From Chloroflexus sp. Y-396-1 (GTDB lineage Bacteria > Chloroflexota > Chloroflexia > Chloroflexales > Chloroflexaceae): a DNA stretch of 64,000 nt. The notes under the pieces were generated by a model. That model saw only the letters and a program-made list of their open reading frames with translations. It was not told where the DNA came from and made no database searches. The stretch spans positions 2,202,881 through 2,266,880 of the forward strand of contig NZ_KI911784.1 of assembly GCF_000516515.1 (NCBI RefSeq), given 5' to 3'. Positions 40,246 through 47,044 of this stretch are shown here, in pieces (position 1 is the first letter of the stretch; every line of letters starts with the position of its first letter). The translations under genes were made by a program, and so were the position numbers.

Positions 40246-40780
40246 ATCAACTTGCACTCCATCTTGATTATGCTTATAGTTGGAATTATATAATTATTGG
40301 CATATCATAACATGAGCTGATAGCATGGTCAACGGTATCGGCTCCGTGTTTAGAGGTTTTCGGCGTTCTCAATTTCGAGTCACCTTCAGACCGGACGATG
40401 AAACCGTAGCGGGACACCGACGAAGAACCGGATGCGCGGACATCCTGGGTGCGCGGACATCCTGGGTGCGCGGACATCCTGGGTGCGCGGACATCTTGGG
40501 AGCGCGGACATCCTGGGAGCGCGGACATCCTGGGAGCGCGGACATCCTGGGTGCGCAGGCCTCTGGCCCGCAATTAGAAGCATCCTCACCCTTCCTCGCC
40601 CCTGGTGGGAGCTTGAAGGGGGCTAAGGGGAGGGTATGGAGATGACTGGAACCTGCCTCAGACGGCAATCGACGCAGCGGAGCGACGCTTCTTACGCCGA
40701 CCGCATGACGCGGGTTAGCAGCAGGAGATTGCGGCCCTAGTGTATCATAGTGGCAGGATGACCGGCACAGGAGCTTAAAC
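40246..40780. other. Divergent intergenic region with tandem repeat between regulator and sensor kinase
   Basis: No gene is supported. On the minus strand TATAAT near 40285-40295 is a -10 candidate for the regulator. On the plus strand TATCAT at 40743-40748 and AGGAG before ATG 40781 serve the kinase. The tandem repeat at 40434-40552 is described separately. Open frames crossing it are artefacts of its period. Confidence 0.5.
40434..40571. repeat. Seven 17-bp tandem repeats ending in a palindrome unit
   Basis: Seven units of GCGCGGACATCCTGGGT (last base A or T; one C-to-T change in unit 4) run from 40434 to 40552. The next bases, GCGCAGGCCTCTGGCCCGC (40553-40571), match the palindromic core of the 37-bp array at 59462-60315. 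Both arrays share the CCTGGGTGCGC junction. They appear to be expansions of the same seed. Confidence 0.9.
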
Positions 40781-42261: not shown

Positions 42262-43401
42262 TTAATCGGAAGCGCTTACCCGCAACGGGTGTTGGGACGT
42301 AGCCGCACGGCGTGCGGTCCGGCGGTCGGCGTTCAGACGGTGTGCACGGCGTGCTGTGGCTGATGGGAGTGGTAGGGCAGGTACGGCCAGCGCCAAAATC
42401 GCCACGCCAATGCGAAGATCAAAACCAGGCGCCGTGATAACCGGAAATGGATAGTAGACCAGAACAGTGGGTTCAATTAGGCGTATCGTCGCGACTACGC
42501 CAACCGCACTTACCGCAGCGATCCAGGTAAGCGTATCCTGACGATGCCAGCGTTCGCGCCGATAGGTTGTGCGTGGCACACATCGGCTTAATTGGTGGGC
42601 AGCCCAACCGGTGAGGAGAAGACCACCACCGCCAAGTGGGGCGACGAGTGGGAAGCTGGAAGGACCAACCCACAGCCAGCCGATGACCGCAGCCGTCAGG
42701 CTTACCAGACCGAAGACCAGTCCTAGTGTGCGGCCGGTTGCTGGTGTCGTTGATACCGTGCGTCCATAGCCACGTGCTTCGAGTGCTTCGGCCAGTTGGA
42801 GGGCACGCTCAAGACTACCGGCCAGGAGTGGGCTAATCAAAGCTCCCCAACTGCGTATCCCGCCGAACCGATGACCACGGGCACGCTGGGAGTCTGTGAT
42901 GTCCTGGACAGTGCGTACTAATCCTGGGGCAAAAGCAATCGCTATCGTCACGGCAAGACCGGCGTGGAAGAGTGAGCGTGGGGTCAACCGGAGCAGCCGA
43001 TGATGATCGACGAGCGCGTTAAAGGTGCCGAAAATGAGCAGGAGTGTCCACAATCCCAAACCACGAGTGGCGCCCCAGGCCAGGGCTTCGGCCGTGATTG
43101 ATCCGCCAAGGACAATACCACCTGACCATGCCGGTAGCTGGATGGCAGGTAACCGGAAGATCACGGTTGTCCCGCGTGCTCCGCCAACCGTCACGATGGC
43201 AAAGAGAACGTATCCGCACCAGATGAAGGCGCCAACACGAGCAAAGAGGGTAAAACTCCGTGCCAGCAGACGATCATCGCGCCGATTCACGAAGATGTAC
43301 GTCACCACCAGCATCAGCAGGATGTGGTAGAGCGGATGCGGTGTGAGCATTGCGATGGTCACCGTTGCTATCAGCCAGCAGAGCCATGTACGTGTATGCA
43401 T
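42262..43401 (-). CDS. EcfT-type energy-coupling factor transmembrane protein
   Basis: A 379-residue membrane protein with several hydrophobic helices. Two Ala-Arg-Gly signatures, SQRARGHRFGG near 172 and LEARGYGRTV near 205, mark the coupling helices of the EcfT/CbiQ family that contact the ATPases. The N-terminal half gives the core membrane fold, and a C-terminal extension of about 150 residues adds further helices. It is the last gene of the cobalamin-riboswitch operon. No EcfA ATPase or S component is encoded in the window. The ATG shares one base with the cobS stop (TAATG). Confidence 0.82.
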   Translation of the reverse strand: MHTRTWLCWLIATVTIAMLTPHPLYHILLMLVVTYIFVNRRDDRLLARSFTLFARVGAFIWCGYVLFAIVTVGGARGTTVIFRLPAIQLPAWSGGIVLGGSITAEALAWGATRGLGLWTLLLIFGTFNALVDHHRLLRLTPRSLFHAGLAVTIAIAFAPGLVRTVQDITDSQRARGHRFGGIRSWGALISPLLAGSLERALQLAEALEARGYGRTVSTTPATGRTLGLVFGLVSLTAAVIGWLWVGPSSFPLVAPLGGGGLLLTGWAAHQLSRCVPRTTYRRERWHRQDTLTWIAAVSAVGVVATIRLIEPTVLVYYPFPVITAPGFDLRIGVAILALAVPALPLPSATARRAHRLNADRRTARRAATSQHPLRVSASD

Positions 43402-44162
43402 TAGCCATTCCCCAGGCGTACTGTCAACGTAGCCAGTACCACCACTTCGCTGATCTCACAAAGGGCGCCGTAGGTGTCGCCGGTCAAGCCACCGAAGTCA
43501 CGAACCCACCAGCGCGCCAACAGATACGCCAACCCTAGCACCAAACCGAGGGCGATCAACCCGTTAAGGTCGGCGATAAGCCAGGTTACCCCAACTGTGA
43601 GCAATGATGCTAGCCAGAAGTCGCGCTGGCGTACCTGGGAATTAAACATGCGTCCCAGGCCCCCTTCACGTGCAGCAGGAAACCAATAAATACCGAAACA
43701 ATCGGCCCAACGCCCCAGGATCGGCGCCAGCAGGAGGGCAGGCCAGGCGCTTGGCGCGTCGGCAATCAGAGCTACTTTCAGGAAGAGGATCATGATCAGC
43801 GCCGAGGCGCCCATGACCCCGATCCGACTATCTTTCATGATTTCGAGTTTGCGCTCGCGTGATCGCCAGCTCAATGCGGCATCGAACGTATCGCTCAGGC
43901 CGTCAAGGTGCATTCCCCCGGTAATGATGCCCCACACTGCCACTACCAATACGGCAGCGCTGAGGTCACCCCACAACGGTCGGGCCAGCAGGTCAACCGC
44001 AGTTAACACACCGCCGATGACCAGGCCGGCCATCGGAAACCAGGGGATTGCCCGCACAACGCTCTGCTCGTTCATTGGTGGCAGGCCGGGAAGGGGAATG
44101 ATGGTGAGAAAGCGTAGGGCCTCTACCAGACCAATAGGAGAACGGATTGATGATTCGCTCAT
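43401..44162 (-). CDS. cobS: Adenosylcobinamide-GDP ribazoletransferase
   Basis: A 253-residue integral membrane enzyme joining adenosylcobinamide-GDP with alpha-ribazole in the last steps of cobalamin assembly. The family signature is clear: VEALRFLTIIPLPGL, AIPWFPMAGLVIGG, GGMHLDGLSDTFDAAL and MKDSRIGVMGASALI, with acidic residues for metal and nucleotide. ATG 44162 overlaps the CobC stop as ATGA, so a longer upstream reading is rejected. It sits in the riboswitch operon with CobC and EcfT, which supports salvage of corrinoids rather than complete synthesis from this locus alone. Confidence 0.93.
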   Translation of the reverse strand: MSESSIRSPIGLVEALRFLTIIPLPGLPPMNEQSVVRAIPWFPMAGLVIGGVLTAVDLLARPLWGDLSAAVLVVAVWGIITGGMHLDGLSDTFDAALSWRSRERKLEIMKDSRIGVMGASALIMILFLKVALIADAPSAWPALLLAPILGRWADCFGIYWFPAAREGGLGRMFNSQVRQRDFWLASLLTVGVTWLIADLNGLIALGLVLGLAYLLARWWVRDFGGLTGDTYGALCEISEVVVLATLTVRLGNG

Positions 44163-44803
44163 ACATTTTCCGCCGTTGCCGCCAACAACCGTGGTACGTT
44201 GTTGATCGTGCGCATAATGATTGTTGATCCGTATACATCGAGTGCAGTGATACTGCCCAGGTCGATGCGCCAGCGCCAGTATTCGGCTATCGGAAGCTGA
44301 CAACACCAACAGAGTACCAGTTGAATGGGGGTAGTGTGAGTGACGATCAGCACTCGTTGACCCACTGCTCCGGCGAGCAATTCTTGCCATGCCTCATTCA
44401 CCCGGTTTGCTACTTCAGCCAGACTTTCACCCCCTGTGGCCCGACCATCAATGCCGTTTGCCCAGCGTTGCTCAGCTTCATCAGGAAAACGTTGCAGCAC
44501 CTCGCGGTACGTTAGTCCTTCCCAACGTCCGTGATCGATCTCCAACCACCGCGGATCTTCGTGTACCGGGATCGTCGGGTGCCGATTCAAAATCGCCATT
44601 GCCAGAGAGCGGGTTCGCTCTGTTGGGCTAACAATGATGTTGGTAAAGGGTAGCACTTGTAGACGATGGGCAAGAGCCAGGTGCTGGCGCCGACCGTAAT
44701 CGGTCAGGGGGCTATCATGGTGGCCGAGATACCGCCGACTCCGGTTAGCTTCGGTTTGACCGTGACGAATAAGCCAGATACTGGTGTGGCGTGAACTGCC
44801 CAC
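44159..44803 (-). CDS. cobC: Histidine phosphatase, CobC (alpha-ribazole phosphatase) type
   Basis: A 214-residue member of the histidine phosphatase superfamily. WLIRHGQTEANRSRRYLGH carries the catalytic RHG, LTDYGRRQ and SPTERTRSLA the phosphate pocket, WLEIDHGRWEGLTYREV the acid region and VTHTTPIQLVLC the second His. It removes the phosphate of alpha-ribazole 5'-phosphate. The general family is broad, so the CobC call rests on the adjacent cobS with ATGA overlap and the upstream B12 riboswitch. Confidence 0.85.
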   Translation of the reverse strand: MGSSRHTSIWLIRHGQTEANRSRRYLGHHDSPLTDYGRRQHLALAHRLQVLPFTNIIVSPTERTRSLAMAILNRHPTIPVHEDPRWLEIDHGRWEGLTYREVLQRFPDEAEQRWANGIDGRATGGESLAEVANRVNEAWQELLAGAVGQRVLIVTHTTPIQLVLCWCCQLPIAEYWRWRIDLGSITALDVYGSTIIMRTINNVPRLLAATAENV

Positions 44804-44815
44804 TGTGAAACTCCT

Positions 44816-45652
44816 TTATCCCTTGTTACGCCGTCTCAACGTGACCACGATGCCCATAATCAACAGTGCTGCCAGGGCGAGAAAGCCGAGCCATTGCCCA
44901 TTTCCATCCCTTGCCGTGGTTGGCGTAGCCGTTTCGGTTATCGTCGGCAGTGTTGGTGAAGGTGATGTTGGTGACGGCAGTGGGCTGGAGATAGGGGTGA
45001 TGGGTGGCGCTGTTGGTGCTTCTGCGGTTGGTGAAGAAGGGCGGGGAACCGTTGCAGGTGCTGTTGGTCGTGTCGTAGTGATGGTCGGGGCTTCCATCAC
45101 CGTAGGGGTGATAGTTGCAGTGGGTTTGGGGGCAACTGTTGGAATGGTAGCAGTGGGGACGGTTGTGGGTAGCGGTGCTGTCTGACCGCACACATCATTC
45201 AGTTCGAGATCTGGTGGTACCGCGCCACCGCTTGCATCACCCGGCCCCCAGGCCCATCCGTGAAGGTCGCCGTCATTCACCAGAACATTGCTGGCACCCA
45301 AATTGGAATAGCGCCACGCACCGTTCTCACGGCGGTAGAAGGCCCAGTAAACCACTCGACCCTGATCGCGAGCGCAGAAGCAACTAGTCGCCGGATAGTC
45401 GCAACCGTCGCGACCGATTTTACACACTGCGGCGCCGATACTGCTCTGCTGGCTGATCACCGGTAACCCGCTCCGTTCGAGCAGATCAAGTCCACTTATC
45501 GTTGGTTCGTTAAAGGTAATGCATGCCGTCACCACTTCACCATTACCGAAACGTACAACGACACCAGCACGGTTGACCGGTGATTGTGCATTGACCGCAC
45601 CCGAAAGCAGGGTCATCACCAGCAAGATCAGTATCGTGCGCCACGGTTTCAT
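44816..45652 (-). CDS. Surface-anchored DUF4430-like protein (transcobalamin beta-domain-like)
   Basis: A 278-residue exported protein: signal peptide (ILILLVMTLLSGAVNAQS), a domain of about 140 residues, a long Pro/Thr stalk and a C-terminal anchor (LGFLALAALLIMGIVVTLRR RNKG). The domain has VVVRFGNGEVVTACITF, GLDLLERSGLPVI, CDYPATSCFC, YWAFYRRENGAWRY and GDLHGWAWGPGD. The LDLL, YW-x-FY and DGD...W.W pattern is that of DUF4430, the family that, to my knowledge, contains the beta domain of transcobalamin and intrinsic factor. Four or five extra Cys may form disulfides. It lies 4 bases after the alpha-toroid gene. Corrinoid binding is inference. Confidence 0.78.
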   Translation of the reverse strand: MKPWRTILILLVMTLLSGAVNAQSPVNRAGVVVRFGNGEVVTACITFNEPTISGLDLLERSGLPVISQQSSIGAAVCKIGRDGCDYPATSCFCARDQGRVVYWAFYRRENGAWRYSNLGASNVLVNDGDLHGWAWGPGDASGGAVPPDLELNDVCGQTAPLPTTVPTATIPTVAPKPTATITPTVMEAPTITTTRPTAPATVPRPSSPTAEAPTAPPITPISSPLPSPTSPSPTLPTITETATPTTARDGNGQWLGFLALAALLIMGIVVTLRRRNKG

Positions 45653-45656
45653 CGTA

Positions 45657-46721
45657 CTACCCTTGTCTTACCGACGAACGACGTAGCCGGAGGCCAAAGA
45701 CCAGCAGTGTCATCCCAAAGATTGCAACCAGGGCCAGGGCCGGCACGGTTTCGCCACCGGTTGTTGGCAGATTGACGACTGGCGCGATCAACGTTTGTGC
45801 TGCCGGGATCGTGGTGGTCCGTACCGGCAGCGTTCTGCCGGCGACAGCCGGAATCGCCTGATAAGTTGCCAGGGCGTTATCGTCGGGCATTGCGTTTTGA
45901 TAGCGAAAGGCGCCACTTTGATTCTGGAATGCGATCAAGGCCTTCAGCGGTGTTGCTTCACCCTGTCGCCATGGATTGTTGTTGGGATCTTCACCGAGCG
46001 CCAGAATCGCCTGAATCACTGCTGCGGTGGAGTTAGCGTCACTGGCGTTGCCGAATGGTGATGTTTGCGAGTAGGGAAAACCGCCATCGGGATTCTGTTG
46101 ACCACGGAGATAGTTACGGGCGGCGGTTAACGCATCGCCGGCACGAGCATAGCCACTCAAAGCCATCACCGCCAGACTGGTCGTATTGGTATCACTACCG
46201 GTTGCTGCTGCGCCATCAAAACTCCATCCGCCATCGCGTAACTGCACCGCAATCAGACGTTCGATAGCAGGCGCTGGCGGTTGAACTCCCATCGCCTTGA
46301 TGGCCAGGAGGGCCAGGGCATGGCCGTACACATCGGCGCCGTACTGACCGGTGGCCGGGTCGTAGGTTGTACCGAGCTGGCGGGCTAGATTAACTCCACC
46401 GAAATTGAGCGGATCGCGTCCGGCGGCGACGACGGCCAAGATCACCTTGGCTGTTGCGCCAGCCGATGAGGTTCCGTAGCTAGCGGCTTGTCCGGCCAGA
46501 TAGTTGAGTGCGCTAGCAGGTGGTTGTTCACCACCGGCCACGAGCGCCACGATGGCATCAGCAGTATCGCCAGGACCAAAACCGGCAAAACTCCCATCGG
46601 CCTGTTGCTGGCCGAGTATCCACTTCAGCCCGACAGCAACCACATCACTCTGTGCAGCCACCGGTTGCGATACGATCATACTCAAAACCAACGTAAGGAC
46701 AAGGAAAATTGTGCGACGCAT
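45657..46721 (-). CDS. Alpha-toroid repeat protein with LPXTG-type anchor (transcobalamin alpha-domain-like)
   Basis: A 354-residue exported protein: signal peptide (TIFLVLTLVLSMIVSQPVAAQ), then repeats of the terpenoid-cyclase/prenyltransferase alpha-alpha toroid (KWILGQQQADGSFAGFGPGD, LIAVQLRDGGWSF, NYLRGQQNPDGGFPY, LKALIAFQNQSGAFRY). The C-terminus is LPTTGGE, a membrane helix and RLRRSSVRQG, a sortase-type anchor. The toroid lacks the catalytic DxDD and zinc site of squalene or prenyl enzymes that I can see. Transcobalamin and intrinsic factor use this fold as their alpha domain. It is first in the B12-riboswitch operon and is followed by the beta-domain-like gene. Confidence 0.8.
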   Translation of the reverse strand: MRRTIFLVLTLVLSMIVSQPVAAQSDVVAVGLKWILGQQQADGSFAGFGPGDTADAIVALVAGGEQPPASALNYLAGQAASYGTSSAGATAKVILAVVAAGRDPLNFGGVNLARQLGTTYDPATGQYGADVYGHALALLAIKAMGVQPPAPAIERLIAVQLRDGGWSFDGAAATGSDTNTTSLAVMALSGYARAGDALTAARNYLRGQQNPDGGFPYSQTSPFGNASDANSTAAVIQAILALGEDPNNNPWRQGEATPLKALIAFQNQSGAFRYQNAMPDDNALATYQAIPAVAGRTLPVRTTTIPAAQTLIAPVVNLPTTGGETVPALALVAIFGMTLLVFGLRLRRSSVRQG

Positions 46722-46761: not shown

Positions 46762-46793
46762 CAACAAAAATCCCTCCACCGGCGGTGGAGGGG
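46762..46793 (-). terminator. Intrinsic terminator of the cobalamin riboswitch
   Basis: Read on the minus strand, CCCTCCACC and GGTGGAGGG form a strong GC stem (about 46772-46792) with a short CGCCG-type loop, directly followed by ATTTTTGTTG (T tract). It lies between the aptamer and the start codon at 46721, the expected position of an expression-platform terminator. Forming it when cobalamin binds would shut the five-gene operon off. Confidence 0.85.
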
Positions 46794-46845
46794 TGAACTG
46801 ATGAAGCAAAAAGAAGGTATTGCCTCACCCCCTTTCCAGCGCGGG

Positions 46846-47009
46846 CGTGACAGCAGACGAGTAGGGACGGGCATTCTGGCTCGTCGCCAATGGCGACATA
46901 CAGTAGCGTGGACTGCGCCGGCCTTGCACCGGACTTCCCCCAATTAAGCCCTTCGCTTCCTCCGGGCTCCCTACCGGTGGGTAAAACCCCACGTTGCTTA
47001 TATTCAATC
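46846..47009 (-). promoter_or_regulatory. Cobalamin riboswitch aptamer
   Basis: On the minus strand the conserved core runs GGGGGAAGTCCGGTGCAAGG, then CCGGCGCAGTCCACGCTACTG and the B12-box-like GAGCCAGAATGCCC. These match the GGGAA-x-GGTGxAAxxCC, CxGxxCCxGCxACTGT and GCCAG-AxxGCC consensus of class I cobalamin riboswitches in order and spacing. A 5' stem (ACGTGGGGTTTTACCCACCGGTAGGG) precedes the core. The exact ends are approximate. The element controls the operon through the intrinsic terminator at 46762-46793. Confidence 0.9.
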
Positions 47010-47015
47010 AGGCTG

Positions 47016-47044
47016 ATGTTAACACAACCCTTGTCAATCGTCAA
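47016..47044 (-). promoter_or_regulatory. Promoter of the cobalamin operon, inside the lysK 3' end
   Basis: On the minus strand TTGACG (47044-47039), a 17-base spacer and TAACAT (47021-47016) form a sigma-70-type promoter. The -35 overlaps the stop codon of lysK (47043-47041). Transcription would start near 47009, just before the riboswitch. A second TTGACA at 47037-47032 has no matching -10. Confidence 0.55.

Follow-up and report, generated by a model that had tools for sequence, protein, structure and literature searches.

A compact cobalamin riboswitch with an intrinsic terminator precedes a predicted B12-uptake operon in Chloroflexus

Results

We identified a compact cobalamin riboswitch, complete with promoter and intrinsic terminator, directly upstream of a tightly packed five-gene operon in Chloroflexus sp. 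Y-396-1 (the window is the whole 64,000-nucleotide stretch of DNA analyzed). The riboswitch very probably terminates transcription, switching a B12-uptake and salvage operon off at high cobalamin; we extend this degree of confidence to the full model, in which membrane-anchored capture proteins would work with an ECF transporter. The leader, on the minus strand, contains the following elements:

47016-47044, minus strand: promoter, -35 TTGACG at 47044-47039, 17-nt spacer, -10 TAACAT at 47021-47016 (consensus scan)
46848-46988, minus strand: cobalamin riboswitch aptamer, compact, 141 nt (RF00174 covariance match)
46907-46912, minus strand: L5 loop UCCACG (position from the Rfam structure line), with UCCA at 46912-46909 complementary to UGGA of L13 at 46838-46835 (complementarity read from sequence)
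46825-46850, minus strand: P13 hairpin, UCAC-G-CCC (46850-46843) with GGG-G-GUGA (46832-46825), loop GCGCUGGAAA at 46842-46833 (drawn and energy-evaluated)
46789-46832, minus strand: antiterminator, GGGGGUG (46832-46826) with CACCCCU (46795-46789), inner helix GAGGCAA (46826-46820) with UUGCUUC (46809-46803); lowest-energy fold before the terminator 3' arm is made
46766-46792, minus strand: intrinsic terminator, RNA CCCUCCACC-GCC-GGUGGAGGG at 46792-46772 followed by AUUUUU at 46771-46766 (plain scan)

A Compact Aptamer Behind a Conserved Promoter

The Rfam covariance search bore out the cobalamin aptamer core reported by the first-pass annotation: RF00174 matches 46988-46848 over its full model length (42.7 bits, gathering score 31.5, E = 2e-7), one of two such matches in the 4.89 Mb genome. 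The same annotation had called the aptamer class I, a label that has to be withdrawn, since class I cobalamin riboswitches are defined by a P8-P12 extension (PMC11260477; PMC5282855) and this extension is absent from the window aptamer. P6 is instead closed by a short 6-bp hairpin (GUCGCC-AUU-GGCGAC), so that 7 nt replace 62 Rfam consensus positions at the P6 extension; J3/4 is GGAA, and J6/3 is AUG. Of the two motifs that characterize class IIb, GGAA at J3/4 and UCU at J6/3, the window aptamer has the first and lacks the second. The lack of P8-P12, the GGAA at J3/4, and the lack of UCU at J6/3 are shared with the class IIb-like ppe2 variant of M. tuberculosis as described in the relevant part of PMC11260477; that variant is under translational control, whereas the window has an intrinsic terminator. 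A search of plasmid records with the leader gave no match. The second riboswitch of the genome (L003:9443-9585, C1 about 3800.4 kb) lies upstream of a 1421-aa ORF; a gene downstream of it is, judging by motif, presumably CobO-like, and CbiC and a second CbiQ sit 7-12 kb downstream.

The sigma-70-type promoter proposed earlier was recovered by a plain scan, with 9 of 12 consensus positions matched and a TG preceding the -10 box. The 601 bp scanned contain 2 promoter-like sites, versus 0.4 in shuffles, and the pattern TTGAC[AG]-N15-19-TA[AC]NAT is present in all ten homologous leaders examined. The lysK stop codon (TGA, 47043-47041) does fall within the -35 hexamer, as had been noticed, and this overlap is common to only four of the ten leaders (the window, L034, L041, and L042); in the remaining six the promoter begins about 70-460 nt past the lysK stop. 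The overlap is therefore incidental, a matter of packing, and we dismissed a functional role for it. The strong terminator with a T tract was likewise found as described, in DNA as CCCTCCACC-GCC-GGTGGAGGG followed by ATTTTT (46792-46766), its 9-bp stem having seven G-C pairs.

A Switch That Would Turn the Operon Off

The direction of switching was read from the strands that the three downstream helices share: P13 and the antiterminator have one strand in common, the antiterminator and the terminator share CCCU (the terminator 5' arm, CCCUCCACC, is 46792-46784), and P13 and the terminator share none. We then compared fold energies, all computed without any contribution from the aptamer or the kissing loops. 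For transcripts ending before the terminator 3' arm, the antiterminator is more stable than P13 in eight of nine leaders (in the window, a computed -24.9 versus -16.2 kcal/mol); the exception is L038, where P13 is computed to be more stable by 1.3 kcal/mol. The lowest-energy fold of the full-length leader is the terminator form in eight of nine leaders and the antiterminator form in the window alone, and control would therefore be kinetic. CCA in L5 and UGG in L13 are present in all nine aligned leaders, with the complementarity taken from the sequence; the GGUGCAAGGCC loop, which we also considered as L5, was discarded because it corresponds to L4 in the scheme of PMC10653944.

In the mechanism we propose, transcription would begin just past lysK. 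With cobalamin bound, UCCA of L5 would kiss UGGA of L13 and hold P13 closed; the closed P13 would retain the GGGGGUGA strand and so block the antiterminator, allowing the terminator (46792-46772) to form and RNA polymerase to be released before gene 1. With cobalamin absent, GGGGGUG would pair with CACCCCU, which overlaps the terminator 5' arm, and the operon would be transcribed. The same P13/antiterminator/terminator logic is described for the repressing transcriptional metE switch of P. megaterium (RF00174; PMC10653944), with which the window shares the aptamer core, the L5-L13 complementarity, an intervening extra hairpin, and a P13 3' strand that pairs with the 5' side of the terminator as antiterminator. 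Unlike that switch, the window aptamer is compact, without P8-P12, and would control an uptake operon of Chloroflexota; its L5 is UCCACG, compared with the consensus UCCCG given in PMC10653944.

Two other readings of the leader deserve weighing. In an activating riboswitch such as that of A. halodurans cobT, the ligand-stabilized P13 would itself be the antiterminator, and B12 would turn the operon on; such switches exist (PMC10653944), and the GC-rich strands of the leader would permit alternative pairing schemes. However, P13 (46850-46825) and the terminator (46792-46772) have no base in common, so P13 is unable to exclude the terminator, and the two can coexist at a computed -29.7 kcal/mol; product repression is, moreover, what would be expected for uptake genes. 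We regard an activating switch as highly improbable. Slightly less remote, and still improbable, is an aptamer core whose switch is translational or inert, the downstream hairpin being an unregulated attenuator. The distance of about 45 nt from the T tract to the gene 1 ATG fits such an arrangement, as does the full-length terminator, whose stability in most leaders does not depend on the aptamer, but P13, L13, the antiterminator, and the terminator keep a constant order in 9 of 9 leaders of Chloroflexus and Oscillochloris (judged by eye), and no helix masking the start of gene 1 was seen in the folds made. Repression by premature termination remains our preferred reading of the leader.

The Riboswitch Is Conserved With the Operon

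Relatives of gene 2 were found in 91 of 150 genomes of the class. The gene-2 alignment, run against a collection of 84,980 species, returned 104 relatives, and the best 80 of these, as named loci, were used below; they were selected only by the presence of a gene-2 relative, and nearly all are labeled as Chloroflexota lineages. Among these best 80 of 104 loci, a riboswitch lies just upstream in 72, every match being on the strand of the module (the riboswitch model was built from 14 aptamers, and 7 of the 72 riboswitch-bearing contigs also contributed rows to it). In five (L086, L089, L114, L127, and L135) of the loci without a match, the contig starts less than 1 kb from gene 2; the others are L087, L116, and L144. 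An intrinsic terminator is located between the aptamer and the first gene in 55 of the 72 leaders, compared with 2.6 expected from letter shuffles, and 17 have none by the rule used. With Rfam RF00174 at gathering score, the riboswitch is recovered in six of seven same-genus loci and in six of eight further loci; at that score there is none in L034, L044, or L047, and the L047 contig ends before gene 1.

The neighboring genes recur as well: of the best 80 of 104 loci, 68 have gene 1 on the strand of the module, 57 have the T component there, and 45 have a match to an ABC ATPase, which in some cases may be an unrelated ATPase. The complete order gene 1, gene 2, T component, ATPase is found in 37. 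An S-component relative occurs in 36 of these 80 loci and also in the genome of Y-396-1, and we abandoned the idea that Thermomicrobium-type operons lack one. Two operons of this order (L088:9435-9962 and L118:9444-9971) also hold a CobA/CobO-type corrinoid adenosyltransferase. In a Thermoflexus MAG, tandem cobalamin riboswitch matches precede the module (L139:1019-1187 and 1339-1474), the upstream one being weak (E = 0.011).

The same-genus leader L034 has kept the promoter and the T tract, and an aptamer was not found there; the operon of that strain should therefore no longer answer B12 through this switch. An insertion element with TnpB (PF07282, PF01385) and a resolvase-like gene lies between the operon promoter and a terminator remnant (L034:10430-12200, minus strand).

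The Five Genes and Their Transporter Partners

The operon encodes, in order, two unfamiliar exported proteins, two late corrinoid-assembly enzymes, and a transporter component:

45657-46721, minus strand: gene 1, an alpha/alpha toroid of 354 aa, secreted, whose C terminus carries an LPxTG-like motif plus a transmembrane helix; proposed half of a B12-capture pair (PF13243, LPXTG model, hydropathy, structure model)
44816-45652, minus strand: gene 2, a 278-aa protein, secreted and membrane-anchored, with a transcobalamin beta-domain-like (SLBB) domain at about 22-138 (predicted structure)
44159-44803, minus strand: gene 3, cobC-like histidine phosphatase (alpha-ribazole phosphatase; PF00300, 189 bits)
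43401-44162, minus strand: gene 4, cobS, adenosylcobinamide-GDP ribazoletransferase (PF02654, 190.7 bits; TIGR00317 above cut-off)
42262-43401, minus strand: gene 5, CbiQ-like T component of an ECF transporter, 379 aa (PF02361, 43.9 bits, cut-off 25)

Gene 3 scores 150.8 bits against TIGR03162, below the cut-off of 162.9. The longest ORF of cobS starts at 44390, and its likely start is 44162, overlapping the cobC stop (ATGA). CobC and CobS would finish the assembly of the lower ligand (nucleotide loop) on incompletely built or salvaged corrinoids. Elsewhere in the window, a 17-bp unit is repeated in 7.3 tandem copies at 40433-40556, between genes that look like a response regulator and a sensor kinase (labeled by eye).

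The first-pass annotation had predicted that cobalamin shuts off the whole operon. As a prediction for the five operon genes in the window this is supported by a terminator-type riboswitch before them, by the OFF logic deduced from the leader sequence, and by conservation of the switch with the operon across Chloroflexota. It would not cover the complete uptake system, whose likely S and ATPase partners are encoded outside the operon, with no cobalamin riboswitch found nearby. The genome has three T components. An S-component relative at about 2338.4 kb (G000:C1) shares about 47% identity with the S component in the L139 operon, and a double ATPase at 2587950 has as its best match the ATPase of a Thermomicrobium-type operon (43%); we infer that these two are the partners of gene 5. 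A PF07155 search of the genome found nothing. No cobalamin riboswitch was found near the S component or the double ATPase, so the Chloroflexus module appears dispersed, with only the capture proteins, the T component, and the late assembly enzymes apparently under the switch.

Gene 2 Has a Predicted Transcobalamin Beta-Domain Fold

The first-pass annotation had expected the riboswitch to give meaning to the first two genes, and structure prediction bears this out through the folds of gene 2 and gene 1. The gene 2 model was built with 60 sequences, and the domain has pLDDT mostly above 93. The first 17 rows of a Foldseek search consist of a Ruminococcus protein and entries for transcobalamin, intrinsic factor, and haptocorrin. 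VIA-align gave 15 rows with Z between 11.0 and 12.4 (96-102 residues, rmsd 1.8-2.9), all of them transcobalamin, intrinsic factor, haptocorrin, or the Ruminococcus gnavus protein of the same fold; the next row has Z 5.7. The model thus predicts that gene 2 has the fold of the transcobalamin beta domain (a beta-grasp of the SLBB transcobalamin clade). Four Cys are invariant in all 60 sequences.

No Pfam model matches gene 2, DUF4430 (PF14478) included, the DUF4430 HMM matches nothing in the genome, and in hhalign the gene 2 profile paired with L158, one DUF4430 protein of Chloroflexota, at a weak probability of 5.8; we therefore ruled out membership of gene 2 in DUF4430. Its profile matched PDB sequences mainly in the Pro/Thr-rich stalk, which leaves the fold comparison as its sole support at the PDB level. 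Against NCBIfam, gene 1 matches SCO2321 (E = 7.5e-36) and gene 2 matches SCO2322 (E = 1.4e-8), both under the curated cut-offs.

Gene 1 Is a Toroid With a Broken Cyclase Motif

Gene 1 matches PF13243 (SQHop_cyclase_C; 28.7 bits, cut-off 26.1) and the LPXTG model (16.2 bits, cut-off 15.9), and its structure model (45 sequences, pLDDT 94.5) is an alpha/alpha toroid with intrinsic factor among many matches. Terpene cyclases (Z 26.2) outscore intrinsic factor (Z 21.7), so the fold of gene 1 alone is not decisive. Over 325 aa, gene 1 is 28% identical to the toroid of the protein L160 (E = 2e-26), which has a Pfam DUF4430 domain as well, and genes 1 and 2 are naturally fused in one frame in L119 (7601-10381, 927 aa).

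The catalytic motif of squalene-hopene cyclase is DXDD; the cyclase sequence D-V-D-D-T (1gsz) corresponds to D-T-N-T-T in gene 1 of the window. In the gene-1 alignment the central motif residue is Asn in 32 of 45 sequences and Asp in 13, and the next Asp is replaced by Thr or Ser in all 45. By the DXDD motif, which is broken and lacks its last Asp in 45 of 45, gene 1 would not be a squalene-hopene cyclase. At residue 179, Asn in the window, the Asp of those 13 relatives gives a DxDTT-like reading.

Could genes 1 and 2 be unrelated to B12 capture, gene 1 acting as an enzyme of the terpene-cyclase kind and gene 2 as a beta-grasp protein for another ligand, such as a lipid or metal, both merely co-regulated? 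The nearest solved sequences and folds of gene 1, squalene-hopene cyclase and drimenyl diphosphate synthase, speak for this, as does the best Foldseek chain of gene 2 (3u7z), whose sole annotation is that of a putative metal-binding protein. Export and anchoring are predicted for gene 1, however, its sequences have a broken DXDD motif, and in the best 80 of 104 loci the two genes co-occur with each other, with ECF genes, and with a cobalamin riboswitch. We consider such a role unlikely, if somewhat less so than either alternative for the leader, and favor a function in B12 capture.

Discussion

In the full model, the toroid of gene 1 and the beta domain of gene 2, both membrane-anchored, would jointly capture a corrinoid outside the cell, like the two domains of intrinsic factor, and pass it to an ECF transporter made of the gene 5 T component and of an S component and double ATPase encoded elsewhere. 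A more specific reading, which we hold tentatively and rate a little below an even chance, makes this pair a two-chain bacterial counterpart of intrinsic factor: the anchored toroid and the transcobalamin domain would close on the extracellular corrinoid and deliver it to the ECF transporter, under a terminator-type cobalamin riboswitch found across the phylum. On that reading, since the Chloroflexus operon adds cobC and cobS, captured incomplete corrinoids would be completed inside the cell.

Such a system had been anticipated in a 2007 proposal by Burroughs and colleagues on SLBB and transcobalamin-like proteins. It predicted a scavenging system of toroid, transcobalamin domain, and ECF components, based on a bacterial transcobalamin-like SLBB clade, toroid fusions, and operons with CbiO and CbiQ (PMC1796856). 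Chloroflexus shares with those operons a secreted transcobalamin-type beta domain, an alpha/alpha toroid, a T component, and an ATPase; it differs in having two separate membrane-anchored chains, cobC and cobS, the riboswitch, a gene 2 outside Pfam DUF4430 with four invariant Cys, and an ATPase and S component encoded elsewhere (PMC1796856). The 2007 proposal tied such proteins mostly to bacteria without key B12 enzymes (PMC1796856), whereas the genome of Y-396-1 has the B12-biosynthesis gene CbiC, which counts against the full uptake model. "Chloroflex" has no occurrence in the main text of PMC1796856, and the available part of that paper contains no mention of a riboswitch. Our literature search on this operon in Chloroflexus found nothing, and the single paper found for transcobalamin with DUF4430 deals, in its accessible part, with gnathostome B12 binders.

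The animal carriers intrinsic factor, transcobalamin, and haptocorrin share with Chloroflexus the predicted beta-domain fold of gene 2 and a toroid partner like gene 1, but they are one chain where Chloroflexus has two, gene 2 is only 11-18% identical to them, and its B12 binding is putative. The B12 transporter ECF-CbrT shares the ECF-type architecture and, as portrayed in the accessible part of PMC5997447, includes no extracellular capture proteins, unlike the system proposed here. What we add to the known picture is a diverged two-chain version in Chloroflexota that is tightly linked to a terminator-type cobalamin riboswitch and that, in Chloroflexus, is accompanied by cobC and cobS; we also add candidates for its S and ATPase partners.

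The riboswitch connects to B12 two protein families, SCO2321 and SCO2322, that have only locus-tag names in NCBIfam, and the predicted structure gives the second of them (gene 2) the fold of an animal B12 carrier. For the regulation, a natural test case exists in L034, the Chloroflexus strain whose aptamer was lost to an insertion element. Should the two chains jointly bind B12, a phylum of phototrophs and mat bacteria would have a relative of intrinsic factor, and an ECF transporter would be preceded by a capture step outside the cell.
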